DNA of 64,000 nt, taken from assembly GCF_003412455.1 (NCBI RefSeq), contig NZ_QTJU01000001.1, positions 1,116,001-1,180,000 on the forward strand. The letters run 5' to 3'. The notes beneath the pieces were generated by a model, which was not told where the DNA came from, did no database searches, and saw only the letters and a program-made list of their open reading frames with translations. Shown here one piece after another: positions 24,989 through 35,012 of the stretch; positions within the stretch are counted from its first letter, which is position 1, and the number at the start of each line of letters is the position of its first letter. The translations under genes were made by a program, and so were the position numbers. The stretch is from Deminuibacter soli (GTDB lineage: Bacteria > Bacteroidota > Bacteroidia > Chitinophagales > Chitinophagaceae).

Positions 24989-24996
24989 TGTGAAAC

Positions 24997-25010
24997 GTTC
25001 CACGTGGAAC
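24997..25010. promoter_or_regulatory. parS site 1 (ParB binding)
   Basis: A perfect 14-bp palindrome GTTCCACGTGGAAC. It equals the central part of chromosomal parS in the form known from Pseudomonas (TGTTCCACGTGGAACA) and is a close relative of the Bacillus consensus. Confidence 0.8.
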
Positions 25011-25065
25011 AAAAGCTAGGTATATACAATTCAATGTTGTTTAGTTAAGTGTATTTGATATTTTA

Positions 25066-25222
25066 ACCGCAAAGAACACAAAGGAAAACCCCGCCAAGTT
25101 CACAAAGGAACCCATTATGTTTATTTTCATTATGTCTTGATTGGTAATACCGGCACCTAATATCGTTTAAATAATACCTTTTTGTGATCTCTGTGGGTTT
25201 TCCCTTTGTGTTTCTCTGTGGT
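25066..25222. repeat. Long imperfect inverted repeat (about 45-bp arms)
   Basis: The left arm 25066-25110 (ACCGCAAAGAACACAAAGG...) matches the reverse complement of the right arm 25178-25222 (ACCACAGAGAAACACAAAGG...) over about 45 bases with scattered mismatches, around a 67-bp spacer. The arms consist of CACAAAG-like blocks. No open frame lies inside. It resembles a small non-coding intergenic repeat or a transposon derivative; copy number cannot be judged from one window. Confidence 0.6.
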
Positions 25223-25302
25223 AGAAAATCAATCATCTTCGGTTATTCTGCCATCCAACTTCAAACCTTAAACTTTAAACTTTTAACATTAAACACCCCA
25301 AC

Positions 25303-25316
25303 GTTCCACGTGGAAC
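25303..25316. promoter_or_regulatory. parS site 2 (ParB binding)
   Basis: A second perfect copy of GTTCCACGTGGAAC, 292 bp to the right of site 1. Confidence 0.8.
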
Positions 25317-25360
25317 ATAGTAATCAATTTGTAAAATAACTAGTCTGCCTGCCATCTCAC

Positions 25361-25374
25361 GTTCCACGTGGAAC
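25361..25374. promoter_or_regulatory. parS site 3 (ParB binding)
   Basis: A third perfect copy of GTTCCACGTGGAAC, extended to an 18-bp palindrome ACGTTCCACGTGGAACGT (25359-25376). It lies 20 bases before the mnmG -7 element, so it covers or adjoins the -33 region. Confidence 0.8.
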
Positions 25375-25394
25375 GTAGGCTATTGTAGGAACTG

Positions 25395-25419: not shown

Positions 25420-27288
25420 ATGTTTCCAGAATACGATGTAATAGTAGTAGGTGCAGGTCATGCCGGGTCTGAGGCTGCCGCTGCTGCTGCTAACCTGGGT
25501 AGTAAGGTATTACTGATTACGATGAATATGCAAACCATTGGACAAATGAGTTGTAACCCCGCCATGGGTGGTATTGCAAAAGGACAAATTGTACGGGAGA
25601 TAGACGCCTTAGGTGGTTACAGTGGCATTGTCACAGATGAAAGCATGATCCAATTCAGGATGCTGAATAAGAGTAAAGGTCCTGCCATGTGGAGCCCCAG
25701 GGCTCAAAACGACCGTATGCTCTTCGCTTCCAAATGGAGGGAGATGCTGGAAAATACCCCCAATGTAGATTTCTACCAGGATATGGTGAAGTCAATCATT
25801 ATTAAAAACAACCGGGCCTGCGGTGTGGTTACAGGTCTGGGTAACGAAATAAAGGCAAAAAGTGTCGTTGTAACCAGTGGTACCTTTCTCAATGGTATCA
25901 TCCATATAGGTGAAAAGAAATTGGGTGGTGGCCGTGCCGGTGAAAATGCCGCAACCGGTATTACGGAGCAGCTGGTGACTTTTGGTTTCGAAGCCGATCG
26001 CCTCAAAACCGGCACCCCACCAAGGGTAGATGGCCGCAGTCTAGACTACACGAAAATGGAAGAGCAGCGAGGTGATGAAGAAATTACCGGGTTCTCTTAC
26101 CTGGATGTAAAGAAGATTACACCGGCAGAACAGCGCAGTTGTTACATTACCTATACCAGCGAGCAGGTACATGATATGCTGAAAACAGGGTTCGATCGCA
26201 GTCCCATGTACACCGGACGTATTGAAGGGGTGGGTCCAAGGTATTGCCCCAGCATTGAAGACAAGATTAATCGCTTCGCCGACAGGGACAGGCATCAGCT
26301 GTTTGTAGAGCCGGAAGGTTTTAATACCGTAGAGATTTACGTAAATGGCTTTTCAACTTCCCTGCCCGATGAGGTGCAGTATAAAGCATTGAGCATGGTG
26401 CCCGGCTTTGAGAATGTACGTTTCTTTCGCCCGGGTTATGCCATTGAATATGACTACTTCCCCCCTACACAGTTAACCTATTCACTGGAAACCAAAATCA
26501 TCAGCCATCTTTTCTTTGCAGGCCAGATCAACGGAACCACCGGTTACGAAGAAGCTGCCTGCCAGGGATTAATTGCAGGGATTAATGCGCACCAGAAGGC
26601 AAAGGAACTGGAACCCTTCATCCTGAAAAGAAGTGATGCTTACGTTGGTGTGCTCATCGATGATTTGATCAGCAAGGGAACCGAAGAACCTTACCGTATG
26701 TTTACCAGCCGCGCCGAATACCGCACGTTGTTAAGGCAGGATAATGCCGACCTCCGTTTAACGCCGATGAGCTACCGCTTAGGTTTGGCCAAACAGGAAA
26801 GAATGGAGAATGTATTGGCTAAGGAAGATGCTGTAAAAAGAATCAGGAAAACCCTGAATGAATTTGCCATTGATCCGTCAGAGGCTAACCAGTACCTTGA
26901 ATCAATTGGCTCTGCAGTGCTCACCGAAAAACAACGTGCCAATAAACTGCTGTTGCGCCCGAATATCGACCTGGCTGCTATGATCAACGCCATGCCTTCC
27001 CTGGCTGCAGCACTGGCAAATGAAACAGCTGATTCACTGGAGCAAACAGAGATACAGGTAAAATATGAACGATATATTGAGAAGGAGCAGGAACTGGTAA
27101 CCAAGTTGTCACAAATGGAAGAAGCCATTATCCCTGACAGTTTTGATTACAGCAAGGTAGGTTCACTGAGTAATGAAGCCTTACAAAAGTTCAATAAAAT
27201 AAAGCCGCGCACATTGGGGCAAGCCAGCAGGATAAGTGGTGTAAACCCAAGTGATGTACAGATACTGATGGTATATATGGGCAGGTAA
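25420..27288 (+). CDS. mnmG: tRNA uridine-5-carboxymethylaminomethyl modification enzyme MnmG
   Basis: 622 residues; the FAD-dependent partner of MnmE that modifies U34 of several tRNAs in the cytoplasm. The FAD-binding VVGAGHAGSEAA is at about residues 8-19, followed by CNPAMGGIAKG, LKTGTPPR, and the late GQINGTTGYEEAACQGL. The C-terminal helical domain ends with QASRISGVNPSDVQILMVY. Full family length. Three parS sites lie upstream and a strong terminator downstream, so it is a single-gene unit. Confidence 0.96.
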   Translation: MFPEYDVIVVGAGHAGSEAAAAAANLGSKVLLITMNMQTIGQMSCNPAMGGIAKGQIVREIDALGGYSGIVTDESMIQFRMLNKSKGPAMWSPRAQNDRMLFASKWREMLENTPNVDFYQDMVKSIIIKNNRACGVVTGLGNEIKAKSVVVTSGTFLNGIIHIGEKKLGGGRAGENAATGITEQLVTFGFEADRLKTGTPPRVDGRSLDYTKMEEQRGDEEITGFSYLDVKKITPAEQRSCYITYTSEQVHDMLKTGFDRSPMYTGRIEGVGPRYCPSIEDKINRFADRDRHQLFVEPEGFNTVEIYVNGFSTSLPDEVQYKALSMVPGFENVRFFRPGYAIEYDYFPPTQLTYSLETKIISHLFFAGQINGTTGYEEAACQGLIAGINAHQKAKELEPFILKRSDAYVGVLIDDLISKGTEEPYRMFTSRAEYRTLLRQDNADLRLTPMSYRLGLAKQERMENVLAKEDAVKRIRKTLNEFAIDPSEANQYLESIGSAVLTEKQRANKLLLRPNIDLAAMINAMPSLAAALANETADSLEQTEIQVKYERYIEKEQELVTKLSQMEEAIIPDSFDYSKVGSLSNEALQKFNKIKPRTLGQASRISGVNPSDVQILMVYMGR

Positions 27289-31259: not shown

Positions 31260-31292
31260 CGTTTATGTGGATAACCCAATGTGTGTTGTTAA

Positions 31293-32306
31293 TTATCCAA
31301 TAAGTCCGGCGGCACGGCTAATCTCCAACATGCGTTCAATGGGCTTCAGCGCTGCCACGCGCAGCTGTTCGTTCATCGTAATTTCCGGCAGCTCATGTTC
31401 CATGCACAGGTACAGTTTTTCCAGCGTATTCAGTTTCATGTGCGGGCAGTCATTACACGCACAGGCGTTATTGGGTGGTGCAGGAATAAATGTTTTATGC
31501 GGCGCATCTTTCTGCATCTGGTGCAGGATACCTGTTTCTGTGGCCACGATATACTCCTGTGCATCGTCTTTTACCGCGAACTTCAGCAGCTGGGTGGTGC
31601 TGCCCACAAATTCGGCTTCACGCAGAATCGGGTCTTCACACTCCGGGTGAGCAATAAGCTTTGCCTTCGGGTGACGCATTTTAAGGCGCGTAATCTTCTC
31701 CAAACTAAAAATCTCATGCACCATACAGGCGCCATTCCAGAGGAGCATGTTGCGCCCCGTTTTCTTGTTTAGATAGGCACCGAGGTTTTTGTCGGGTGCA
31801 AAAATGATAGGCTGATCTTCCGGAATGCTTTCAATGATCTTTTCTGCATTGCCGCTGGTGCAGATAATATCACTCAGTGCTTTGATCTCGGCCGAGCAGT
31901 TGATGTACGATACCACAATATGATCCGGGTGCTGCTCCTTAAACTTTTTGAACAGCGGTGCAGGTGCACTGTCGGCCAGGGAGCAGCCTGCCTTTAAATC
32001 GGGCAGCAGCACCTTTTTATGCGGGTTGAGGATCTTCGCTGTTTCGGCCATAAAATGCACGCCGGCGAAAACAATGATGTCTGCGTCGGTTTTGGCAGCC
32101 TGCTGGGCCAGGCCCAGGCTGTCGCCAATATAATCGGCCACATCCTGGATATCGGGCTCCTGGTAATAGTGCGCGAGCAGGATGGCATTTTTTTCTTTTT
32201 TCAACCGTTCTATTTCCGCGAACAGATCAATGGTGGGATCCACATCCACATCGAGGAAGCCGTTTTTTTCCAAATTCAATTTTGCTGTTGAAATGTTGAT
32301 ATCCAT
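31293..32306 (-). CDS. nadA: Quinolinate synthase NadA
   Basis: 337 residues. It makes quinolinate from iminoaspartate and dihydroxyacetone phosphate for NAD synthesis and needs a [4Fe-4S] cluster. Signatures are [34 protein letters not shown], and the cluster cysteines in [21 protein letters not shown] and the C-terminal [12 protein letters not shown] region. The minus-strand ATG at 32306 faces the putative oriC. It stands alone, without nadB or nadC nearby. Confidence 0.96.
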
Positions 32307-32705
32307 CGTATTATTATGTATTAATACATTATTTATATAAAAACCCTATTACTATTACGGGTGTGTATAACGGGATAACTTACTTATCCCCACAGAACAA
32401 AGTTAACTTTTACGGCATTATCCACCGTAATTCACAATTAGCTCACAATCAATAATTCAATAGGCAAAAGGATTTGCGGCATTTTTTAACAACGGGGGAT
32501 ATTTCAATGCGGGTTTTTACACAATACCCAATTCACAGGATATGCACTGTTAGTTAACTGGTGGAAATTCGTGTGCAAAAACCGGTATTCCGGCAATTTC
32601 TTAAAATTGGCTGAAATTGTTCCACCTGTATGCACTTTCGCAAAAGTCAAAAACCGGGTTTATCCACAGGAATATACCCTTGTTAACAGGTTGATGTTGA
32701 AAGGT

Positions 32706-32728
32706 GTTCCACGCTACCGGCGTGGAAC
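32706..32728. repeat. Split parS-like palindrome
   Basis: GTTCCAC (32706-32712) and GTGGAAC (32722-32728) are the exact halves of the parS palindrome, held apart by nine bases (GCTACCGGC). As a hairpin the stem is nine pairs, GTTCCACGC/GCGTGGAAC. Confidence 0.5.
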
Positions 32729-32840
32729 CGGAATTTTTCCCCGGGCATGGCGGATGGCCTTAATGACGGCTTAAAAATCCGGCGGAACGGAAAAATCGGG
32801 AAAAGCAGCGGCCTGCTTAAATTTTAGCTGTTATCCACAA

Positions 32841-32871
32841 TTTGTTCAAATGCCAGATTCCCCTATTTTTG
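32841..32871 (+). promoter_or_regulatory. Promoter of the PpiC-type foldase gene
   Basis: A TTTG -33 element (32841-32844) and TATTTTTG -7 element (32864-32871) are 19 bases apart, a good Bacteroidota promoter. The DnaA box at 32831-32839 ends one base before the -33 element. Confidence 0.6.
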
Positions 32872-32900
32872 CCATCTTCTTATAAACCTTATACTATAAT

Positions 32901-35012
32901 ATGTCACTAATCCAAAGGATTCAGGATAAGCAAAAATGGGTGTTCGGCACGATTGCAGCTGCACTGGTCATTTTTATTGTACAGGATGCTTCTGTTCACA
33001 GAGGCTCACTGTTTTCCAACGGCACTACTGTTGGTAAAGTAAACGGCGAAAAAATCGACAAGAAAGATTTTGAAGCCAAGATGGATATGATTACACAGAT
33101 GCAGGGCCAGCAGGCACCGCCCCGTGAACAACTGATGCCAAACGTTTGGCAGTTCATGGTGGAAGAAACTATCCTGAAACAGGAAGAAGATAAACTGGGT
33201 CTTGTGTTTAACGGCAAAGAATTAAACGACATATTATTTGGTGATAATCCTCCTGCCTGGATGAAACAGCAGTTCACCGATCCGCAGACCGGTGAATATA
33301 AAATAGATGTTGCGAAATCAACTTTTGCGCAGATTAAAAAACAGAAGAACAACCCACAGGTTGCTGCTTTTTATGAAGCGTACATCCAGCCTACTATCGA
33401 CCAGACGGTGCGTATGAAATATACCAGCCTTATTTCACAGGCAGTATATGTTCCGAAATGGATGTCACAGAAATTAAATGTGGATAACAGCTCTATTGCC
33501 AACATATCTTATGTATATGTCCCTTACAGCTCAGTAAGCGACAGCACTGTTAAAGTAAGCGACGATGAAATCAGCGCTTATGTAAAAAAGAACGCCAGCC
33601 AGTTTGAGCAGGAAGAAGAAACAAGAACGATTGCTTTTGTTAGCTTCGATGCTTCTGCGAATGGTGCAGACAGCGCTGCAGTGATCAGCCAGCTGAATAC
33701 ACTGAAACCTGAATTTGCTGCAACCGCAGATGCCAAATCTTTTATTGCCGCCAAAGGTTCTGAACTGCCTTACTACGATGGTTTTGTAACAAAGGTTAAT
33801 ATGAAAATGCCAAACGCCGATACGCTGATGCATTTAGGCGATGGCCAGGTATTTGGTCCTTATGCAGACGGCCAGAACTTTGTAATTGCTAAAATGGTTG
33901 CACGCCGTGTTATTCCCGATTCTGTAAAAGTGCGCCACATATTAGTGAAGGTAGCTGACCAGGGTGGCCAGCAGGTACTGAGCGATAGCATTGCCAAGAA
34001 AAGAATTGACAGCATTGAACTGGCTGTAAGAAACGGTGCTGACTTTGATGCCATGGTACAGAAATATTCTGATGACCCGGGAAGCAAAAGCACCAAAGGT
34101 GAATACACATTCAGCTCTACACAATACGGCAACCTGTCAAAAGAATTTGCTGATGTTGCTTTTTATGGCAACACGGGCGACAGGAAAGTGGTGAAAGTTG
34201 AAAACGCTTCTTATTCAGGTTACCATTATATAGAAGTACTCGAACAGAAAAATAAACAGGAAGCCTACCAGATTGCTTACATCGCAAAACCGATTGTTGC
34301 CAGCCAGGAAACAGTCAGCGCAGCAAACACAGCTGCCCAGCAATTTGCCGCCAGTGTAAAAGACAAAAAGCAATTTGAAGAAGCGGCCACCAAACTGGGT
34401 AAATCTCCTGCCCTTTCTCCTGAGATCAGGGAAAATGATTTCCAGGTAGCTACATTGGGTAACAACCGCTCTTTTGTAAAATGGATTTTTGAAAATAACC
34501 AGGGTGATATTTCTGCTCCTACCGAAATTGGCGAGCGCTATGTTGTAGCCATGGTTAATAATGTGAATAAAGCCGGCCTGCTTTCTGCAAGCGCAGCACG
34601 TCCGCTGGTGGAAAACATCCTGAAAAACGAGAAAAAAGCCAAACAGCTGATTGATAGCAAATTTAAAGGCAGTACCCTGGAGGCTTATGCACAGAGTGCA
34701 GGTACAACTGTACAGCGTGCAGATAGCGTTTCTTTCAGAACACCATTTATTGCAGGTTTGGGCAGCGAGCCTAAAATTGTGGGCGCAGCTTTCAACAAAG
34801 CACTGAGTGCGAAAGCTTCTGAACCAATTGCAGGTTCAACCGGTGTATTTGCTGTGAAAAGCGAAGGTATCAGCGCAAGCCAGTCTGGCGGCACCCCTGA
34901 AGATCAGCGCCGTTCACTGGAAGCCAACATGAAAGCGCAGATCGGTTACCGCGCACTGGACGCACTGCGTAAAGCGGCTGACGTAAAAGACAACCGTTCT
35001 AAATTCTATTAG
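32901..35012 (+). CDS. Membrane-anchored peptidyl-prolyl isomerase, SurA/PpiD type
   Basis: 703 residues. An N-terminal inner-membrane helix (WVFGTIAAALVIFIVQDA, about 13-30) anchors a periplasmic chaperone. A SurA_N-like helical region follows (about 40-200). The PpiC-type parvulin domain begins at VKVRHILVKVADQGG near residue 343 and includes DFDAMVQKYSDDPGSKSTKGEY. The C-terminal region is helical and low in complexity. It assists folding of outer-membrane and secreted proteins. A strong promoter and terminator bracket it as a single gene. Confidence 0.88.
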   Translation: MSLIQRIQDKQKWVFGTIAAALVIFIVQDASVHRGSLFSNGTTVGKVNGEKIDKKDFEAKMDMITQMQGQQAPPREQLMPNVWQFMVEETILKQEEDKLGLVFNGKELNDILFGDNPPAWMKQQFTDPQTGEYKIDVAKSTFAQIKKQKNNPQVAAFYEAYIQPTIDQTVRMKYTSLISQAVYVPKWMSQKLNVDNSSIANISYVYVPYSSVSDSTVKVSDDEISAYVKKNASQFEQEEETRTIAFVSFDASANGADSAAVISQLNTLKPEFAATADAKSFIAAKGSELPYYDGFVTKVNMKMPNADTLMHLGDGQVFGPYADGQNFVIAKMVARRVIPDSVKVRHILVKVADQGGQQVLSDSIAKKRIDSIELAVRNGADFDAMVQKYSDDPGSKSTKGEYTFSSTQYGNLSKEFADVAFYGNTGDRKVVKVENASYSGYHYIEVLEQKNKQEAYQIAYIAKPIVASQETVSAANTAAQQFAASVKDKKQFEEAATKLGKSPALSPEIRENDFQVATLGNNRSFVKWIFENNQGDISAPTEIGERYVVAMVNNVNKAGLLSASAARPLVENILKNEKKAKQLIDSKFKGSTLEAYAQSAGTTVQRADSVSFRTPFIAGLGSEPKIVGAAFNKALSAKASEPIAGSTGVFAVKSEGISASQSGGTPEDQRRSLEANMKAQIGYRALDALRKAADVKDNRSKFY

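Follow-up and report, generated by a model that had tools for sequence, protein, structure and literature searches.

Gene context and DnaA boxes of the nadA–ppiC intergene

The window analysed here, a stretch of 64,000 bases from Deminuibacter soli, corresponds to positions 1,116,001–1,180,000 of contig C11 (1,448,020 bases) in a genome of 24 contigs and 5.83 Mb; coordinates given without a contig name refer to the window. It contains a non-coding intergene of 594 bases between two divergent genes, nadA on the minus strand (start at 32306) and ppiC on the plus strand (start at 32901). The genes and the more distant features of the locus are:

24996–25375, plus strand: three parS-like sites upstream of mnmG, at 24996, 25302 and 25360 (exact matches)
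31266–31274, minus strand: perfect DnaA box, outlying, past the end of nadA (box search)
31293–32306, minus strand: nadA, coding for quinolinate synthase and usually found beside the opening element described below (family scan with NadA over the cut-off; conserved-neighbour counts)
32660–32668, plus strand: perfect DnaA box, central in the intergene (box search; alignment with relatives)
32901–35012, plus strand: ppiC, PpiC/SurA-like foldase, a less stable neighbour of the opening element (family scans; neighbour counts)

The first-pass annotation had placed a likely replication origin between nadA and a PpiC-type foldase gene, and both gene names are borne out by the family scans. The foldase protein carries SurA-like and PpiC-type domains over the Pfam cut-offs, its NCBIfam matches being weak, and among the matches listed its closest named homologue is that of a Filimonas (67%). 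The mnmG gene, noted at about 5 kb from the candidate origin, was located by family scan at 25420–27288, and the parS sites noted at about 7 kb are the three given above. They are the only exact parS-like sites in the 1.18 of 1.45 Mb of C11 that were scanned. Among the corresponding loci of eight relatives, two exact sites near mnmG are present in four and a one-mismatch site in one, and no parS-like site was found in the other three.

The DnaA boxes that had drawn attention to the intergene were all recovered. Three perfect TTATNCACA boxes occupy 32362–32370 (minus strand), 32660–32668 and 32831–32839 (both plus strand); two one-mismatch boxes start at 32384 and 32418, an inverted GGGATAA/TTATCCC pair lies at 32372–32378 and 32384–32390, and the outlying perfect box is found beyond the end of nadA. 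At the place of the box at 32660, seven aligned relatives have TTATCCAC in three cases and TTTTCCAC in three. Three further perfect boxes are located within the ppiC coding sequence (33479–33487, 34562–34570 and 34685–34693), which brings the total between 31266 and 34693 to seven.

The annotation's expectation of about 0.02 boxes in 594 bases is right for even base composition. In the shuffled window, 3.72 perfect boxes were found per 64 kb, corresponding to about 0.035 per 594 bases, and the boxes in this non-coding DNA are clustered above chance. The whole genome contains 210 perfect boxes compared to 206 matches of the reversed control pattern, and a Poisson estimate predicts about 0.05 chance occurrences of three boxes in 594 bases per genome; taken by itself, the box count is moderately unusual and suggestive, but not decisive. 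These two figures are what a chance cluster of DnaA boxes could appeal to. Such an explanation is nevertheless practically excluded, as it is refuted by the conservation of the site in the family and opposed by the GC skew (see below).

A candidate opening element at the nadA end of the intergene

Work of 2019 (PMC6669920) reportedly described a basal unwinding system (BUS) in oriC of Bacillus subtilis and in predicted relatives. A layout of this type, overlooked by the first-pass annotation, is present on the minus strand at 32346–32378 and consists of two tandem DnaA boxes, a spacer and four DnaA-trios, followed by an AT-rich tract of 39 bp. Read on the minus strand from 32378 downwards, the sequence is TTATCCCGTTATACACA, CCCG, TAA TAG TAA TAG and GG, after which A/T predominates as far as the nadA start. 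From the nadA side to the ppiC side, the intergene comprises:

32307–32345, minus strand: AT-rich tract (putative DNA unwinding element) from the trios to the nadA start codon, holding the palindrome 32316–32329 (composition)
32346–32357, minus strand: four DnaA-trios, TAA TAG TAA TAG (sequence; conserved beside nadA)
32358–32361, minus strand: GC spacer CCCG, separating the trios from box B (sequence; similar in 70 related origins, at positions partly selected by the search pattern)
32362–32370, minus strand: DnaA box B, TTATACACA, adjoining the spacer (box search; its CACA is part of the search pattern)
32370–32378, minus strand: DnaA box A, TTATCCCGT, in tandem with box B and sharing one base with it (three mismatches to TTATCCACA)
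32384–32392, plus strand: DnaA box C, TTATCCCCA, in opposite orientation to A and B (one-mismatch box)
32398–32405, minus strand: conserved block TAACTTTG, possible nadA promoter inside the probable origin (conserved in 70 related origins; presumed function)
32418–32447, plus strand: box-like sites in a row, spaced by 10–11 bp: D (32418, TTATCCACC), E (about 32428), F (about 32439) (conservation)
32831–32868, plus strand: DnaA box and adjoining ppiC promoter-like block, TTATCCACAATTTGTTC ... TATTTTTG, probably outside the origin core

The published search rule for BUS elements, as worded in the text of PMC8287927 (2021), requires three or more trios (3'-NAN-5') no farther than 16 bp from a DnaA box. 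The intergene has four trios, separated from box B by 4 bp and from the end of box A by 12 bp. The adjoining DNA (32307–32346) has an A+T content of 82.5% and qualifies, by composition only, as an AT-rich unwinding element. The palindrome of 14 bp reported from this flank (ATGTATTAATACAT, 32316–32329) is indeed present. In the 70 related origins it is not conserved as such, the corresponding positions mostly keeping A/T but no fixed sequence, and the palindrome was dropped as a conserved element. We judge the core of the origin to be the BUS at the nadA end of the intergene.

Conservation of the element in Chitinophagaceae

A search pattern composed of the end of box B, the spacer and the trios (CACANCYSTARTARTARTA) was applied with at most one mismatch to 117 genomes of the family and found in 79 of them. 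Of its exact places, 43 in number, 39 are situated within 20 kb of a ppiC homologue, 33 of these being 0.4–1.0 kb upstream and divergent; among the 67 one-mismatch places, 21 lie within 20 kb of ppiC and 46 are not near it. The backwards control gave 52 matches in the same genomes compared to 110 for the pattern (hand count). Given this background, single one-mismatch matches mean little, and it is the exact ones near ppiC that count. The ppiC places, of which the best one per genome was used, are available for 111 of the 117 genomes (none in G030; partial or weak in G033, G042, G091, G094 and G114). With respect to them, the BUS is positioned 416–1025 bp upstream and divergent in 49 genomes and 2.7–3.5 kb upstream in nine. 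The D. soli genome contains the pattern once, as an exact match, and no other at one mismatch or less, the backwards control also matching once at this threshold. A stricter pattern matched exactly in six of nine family genomes and in one of 386 others of the class, the backwards control in one of 395.

Two further sets of loci were compared. Scanning the genome contigs with the ppiC protein alone yielded no relatives; a ppiC alignment query kept 80 of 385. Of these 80 named loci, 71 extend far enough upstream: 67 contain nadA and 56 the BUS (at most one mismatch), and nadA accompanies the BUS in all 56. The named and unnamed sets overlap partly and are thus not independent. In the 38 family genomes devoid of a pattern match, a NadA place was found in 30 and none in eight; 26 of the 30 are usable, having a nadA start and upstream DNA. 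A diverged BUS with up to three mismatches precedes nadA in 18 of these 26, as against four of 900 shuffled 380-base stretches, and is absent at this threshold in the other eight. The BUS is accordingly conserved in related origins, with these eight of 26 as exceptions.

For a closer view of the conserved architecture, 70 distinct origins were used from the 77 of 130 loci that passed a nadA-motif plus two-mismatch filter. They contain 280 DnaA-box sites at one mismatch or less compared to 16.6 in dinucleotide shuffles (17 times), and 70 perfect boxes compared to 3.4, both ratios being somewhat inflated because the pattern itself selects in part for box B. Beyond the positions covered by the search pattern, the blocks that are conserved comprise box A, the inverted box C, the TAACTTTG block and the box-like sites. 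The first five positions of box A are T (0.99), T (1.00), A (0.80), T (0.97) and C (0.96), and in 43 of the 70 origins the place of box C holds a site that differs from TTATCCACA by one base or none. One-mismatch sites occur at D in 29 and at E in 13 origins (at distances of 61 and 71 bases, respectively, from the reference position), and F, near 82 bases, is a weak consensus block only; the three are spaced by about one helical turn.

nadA and ppiC as neighbours of the element

Around pattern matches, nadA adjoins the BUS in 17 of 20 fetched loci, 18 of which had been selected for having no ppiC in the nearest 2 kb or so upstream, and is absent in three (G100, G001 and G020). In another set, taken from the 117-genome pattern search, nadA is present in 25 of 30 loci. 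The element often precedes nadA by about 40 bp. From the genomes compared, the nadA-side arrangement is common in the family. Two of the loci devoid of nadA (L134 of G100 and L136 of G001) belong to two species of one genus and carry the BUS pattern (an exact match in one, a one-mismatch match in the other), but no nadA was found in the 7–10 kb inspected; a relocation either of nadA or of the origin is possible. The gene ppiC had also been considered as the anchor of the origin and was dropped, since in some genomes it lies elsewhere and the BUS is still accompanied by nadA and by the skew minimum.

Both flanking genes have promoter-like sequences close to DnaA boxes. We take the TAACTTTG block to fit the Bacteroidota –7 promoter element TAnnTTTG; no clear –33 element was found upstream of it in the 70 origins. 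On the opposite side, the TTTG...TATTTTTG block by the box at 32831 presumably fits a Bacteroidota promoter as well. Of the 80 loci, 55 were usable, and in 40 of these the motif TCCACA[AG]TTTGTTC (at most three mismatches) lies no more than 200 bp from the ATG of ppiC; in the nine loci with ppiC 2.7–3.5 kb from the BUS the block is still at ppiC in four and was not found in five. As the block accompanies ppiC, the box at 32831 was no longer counted with the origin core and probably belongs, though with less certainty, to the ppiC promoter. The position of TCCACA directly upstream of the promoter-like block suggests that ppiC may be under DnaA control.

GC skew and position of dnaA

The skew of the host contig was calculated in 10-kb bins over 1.18 of its 1.45 Mb (complete from 550 kb to the end, half-sampled before). 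To the left of the site, 73 of 88 bins have less G than C, and to the right 28 of 30 have more, which turns the earlier impression of more C on the left and mostly equal or more G on the right, gained from spot counts, into a change of sign at the site. The cumulative GC-skew plot that had been proposed as a check was drawn for this contig, one of 24, and has its minimum in the bin 1,140,001–1,150,000, which includes the site and ends just past it; the remaining 23 contigs are not orderable and the own-genome skew is that of this contig. Within the window, the minimum is reached at base 31738, 0.6 kb from the trios.

Four single-contig relatives behave similarly. The local skew turns at the BUS in G113 (80-kb stretch) and in G022 (120-kb stretch, BUS and ppiC being 28 kb apart). 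In G018 (200-kb stretch), where 105 kb separate the BUS from ppiC, it turns no more than 10 kb from the BUS. Twenty samples round the circle of G113 place the minimum between 6.85 and 7.22 Mb, the BUS being at 7.075 Mb, and whole-circle samples of G055, in which the skew is noisy, place it at 4.21–4.55 Mb, the BUS being at 4.371 Mb. Hence, the element is found at the skew minimum in D. soli and in four other genomes, to within 10 kb in D. soli, G113, G018 and G022 and to only about 370 kb in G055.

The dnaA gene does lie elsewhere, a point that the first-pass annotation had wished to see checked, namely on another contig (C2:117867–119252). No perfect DnaA box was found within 8 kb of it, the nearest being 8.2 kb away, and no skew reversal is seen around it over 108–128 kb of C2. 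Among the first 100 of the 210 genomic boxes listed, no stronger cluster than that of the intergene was found. The contig of dnaA also carries two perfect boxes in tandem, 2 bases apart (C2:154537–154556), possibly a DnaA titration or regulatory site. Thus, the origin candidate of D. soli is not adjacent to dnaA, and the same applies to all eight single-contig relatives searched, where dnaA is 0.7–3.0 Mb from the BUS, as worked out by hand with the contigs taken as circular (in G105, which has no BUS match at one mismatch or less, the distance was measured from nadA).

These data bear on two other readings of the locus. In E. coli, datA and DARS are DnaA-titrating and DnaA-reactivating sites, respectively, and the intergene might be a site of this kind or a DnaA-controlled divergent promoter, the true origin lying elsewhere nearby. 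Boxes in front of both flanking genes, the box-like block that accompanies ppiC and the perfect boxes inside ppiC (at 33479, 34562 and 34685) would suit this explanation. It is, however, hard to reconcile with the skew reversal at the element in the own and the relatives' genomes, with the lack of a second pattern match (at most one mismatch) in the own genome, and with a fixed order of box, trios and AT-rich tract, which is needed for an opening site but not for titration; we consider it very improbable. The second reading regards the conserved architecture as that of a nadA promoter which is near the origin by accident, the trio tract being the nadA leader or a regulator site. It could explain why the element often stands about 40 bp before nadA, why it stays with nadA when ppiC is elsewhere, and why TAACTTTG resembles a Bacteroidota promoter element. 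Yet, the skew turns within 10 kb of the element in D. soli, G113, G018 and G022, in two of which ppiC is far away, and a box density 17 times that of shuffles in the 70 related regions is not accounted for, so that this reading appears scarcely tenable.

Supported by the skew minimum, the BUS layout and the conservation in the family, the replication origin postulated between nadA and ppiC is with great confidence assigned as the chromosomal oriC of this member of the Chitinophagaceae, equipped with a canonical BUS. The sequence elements, their conservation and the position at the skew minimum in five genomes are direct observations.

Proposed mechanism of origin opening

DnaA binding, the direction of unwinding and helicase loading are deduced by analogy with the published BUS. 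DnaA would bind to the tandem boxes A and B (32362–32378), helped by box C and the row D–F, and the resulting DnaA filament would be directed leftward across the CCCG spacer onto the single-stranded trios (32346–32357). Engagement of the trios might then open the AT-rich tract, whose 39 bp extend to the nadA start codon. The opened tract would let the helicase load, upon which two forks could leave in opposite directions.

The proximity of nadA invites the speculation that NAD synthesis is physically coupled to initiation in the family. In such a scenario, the nadA promoter (the TAACTTTG block) would fire through the boxes, the trios and the unwinding tract into nadA; DnaA assembly might switch nadA off or, conversely, nadA transcription might help to open the origin. 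If this were true, nadA would be kept at the opening element more than ppiC by selection and not incidentally. We regard the coupling as speculative and rather doubtful.

Irrespective of this speculation, the assignment as oriC places the probable origin of many family members to within tens of bases, at a site far from dnaA, and the signature of boxes, spacer, trios and nadA may serve for locating origins in Chitinophagaceae draft genomes. Growth-rate estimates from sequencing depth depend on knowing the origin position. The element could also serve to test the BUS model, as the species tested in vitro according to the text of PMC8287927 include no Bacteroidota, and its main text contains no word beginning with “bacteroid”. 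A tie between opening element and nadA, or a description of this origin, was not found in the literature searched by title and start of abstract, subscription journals, supplements and the DoriC tables being outside this search; computed origins of Chitinophagaceae with names may well be catalogued in DoriC.

Comparison with known origins

In E. coli, oriC is located between gidA (mnmG) and mioC. The D. soli origin region resembles it in having mnmG nearby (5 kb) and in lying away from dnaA, and differs from it in its immediate neighbours and in its trio-type opening element.

With the BUS of B. subtilis and of PMC8287927 it shares tandem boxes, a spacer and repeated 5'-TAG/TAA-3' trios, followed by AT-rich DNA. 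According to the text of that study, which predicted a BUS in 1755 of 2070 origins, the spacing between upstream box and trios peaks at 10–13 bp, and the 12 bp between box A and the trios fall within this peak. Of the two boxes, the upstream one is reported there as tending to match the consensus more closely, whereas in D. soli the better-matching box is B, beside the trios. Unlike the B. subtilis BUS, the origin described here is far from dnaA and abuts nadA.

A parallel in the phylum is Elizabethkingia meningoseptica, for which an Ori-Finder oriC at 740,720–741,368 and dnaA at 2,613,273 are given in the text of PMC8994065. There, too, an origin without dnaA was found by skew and three boxes. 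Since computed origins far from dnaA have already been reported in Bacteroidota in this way, the nadA-side origin of D. soli represents a site of a known kind.
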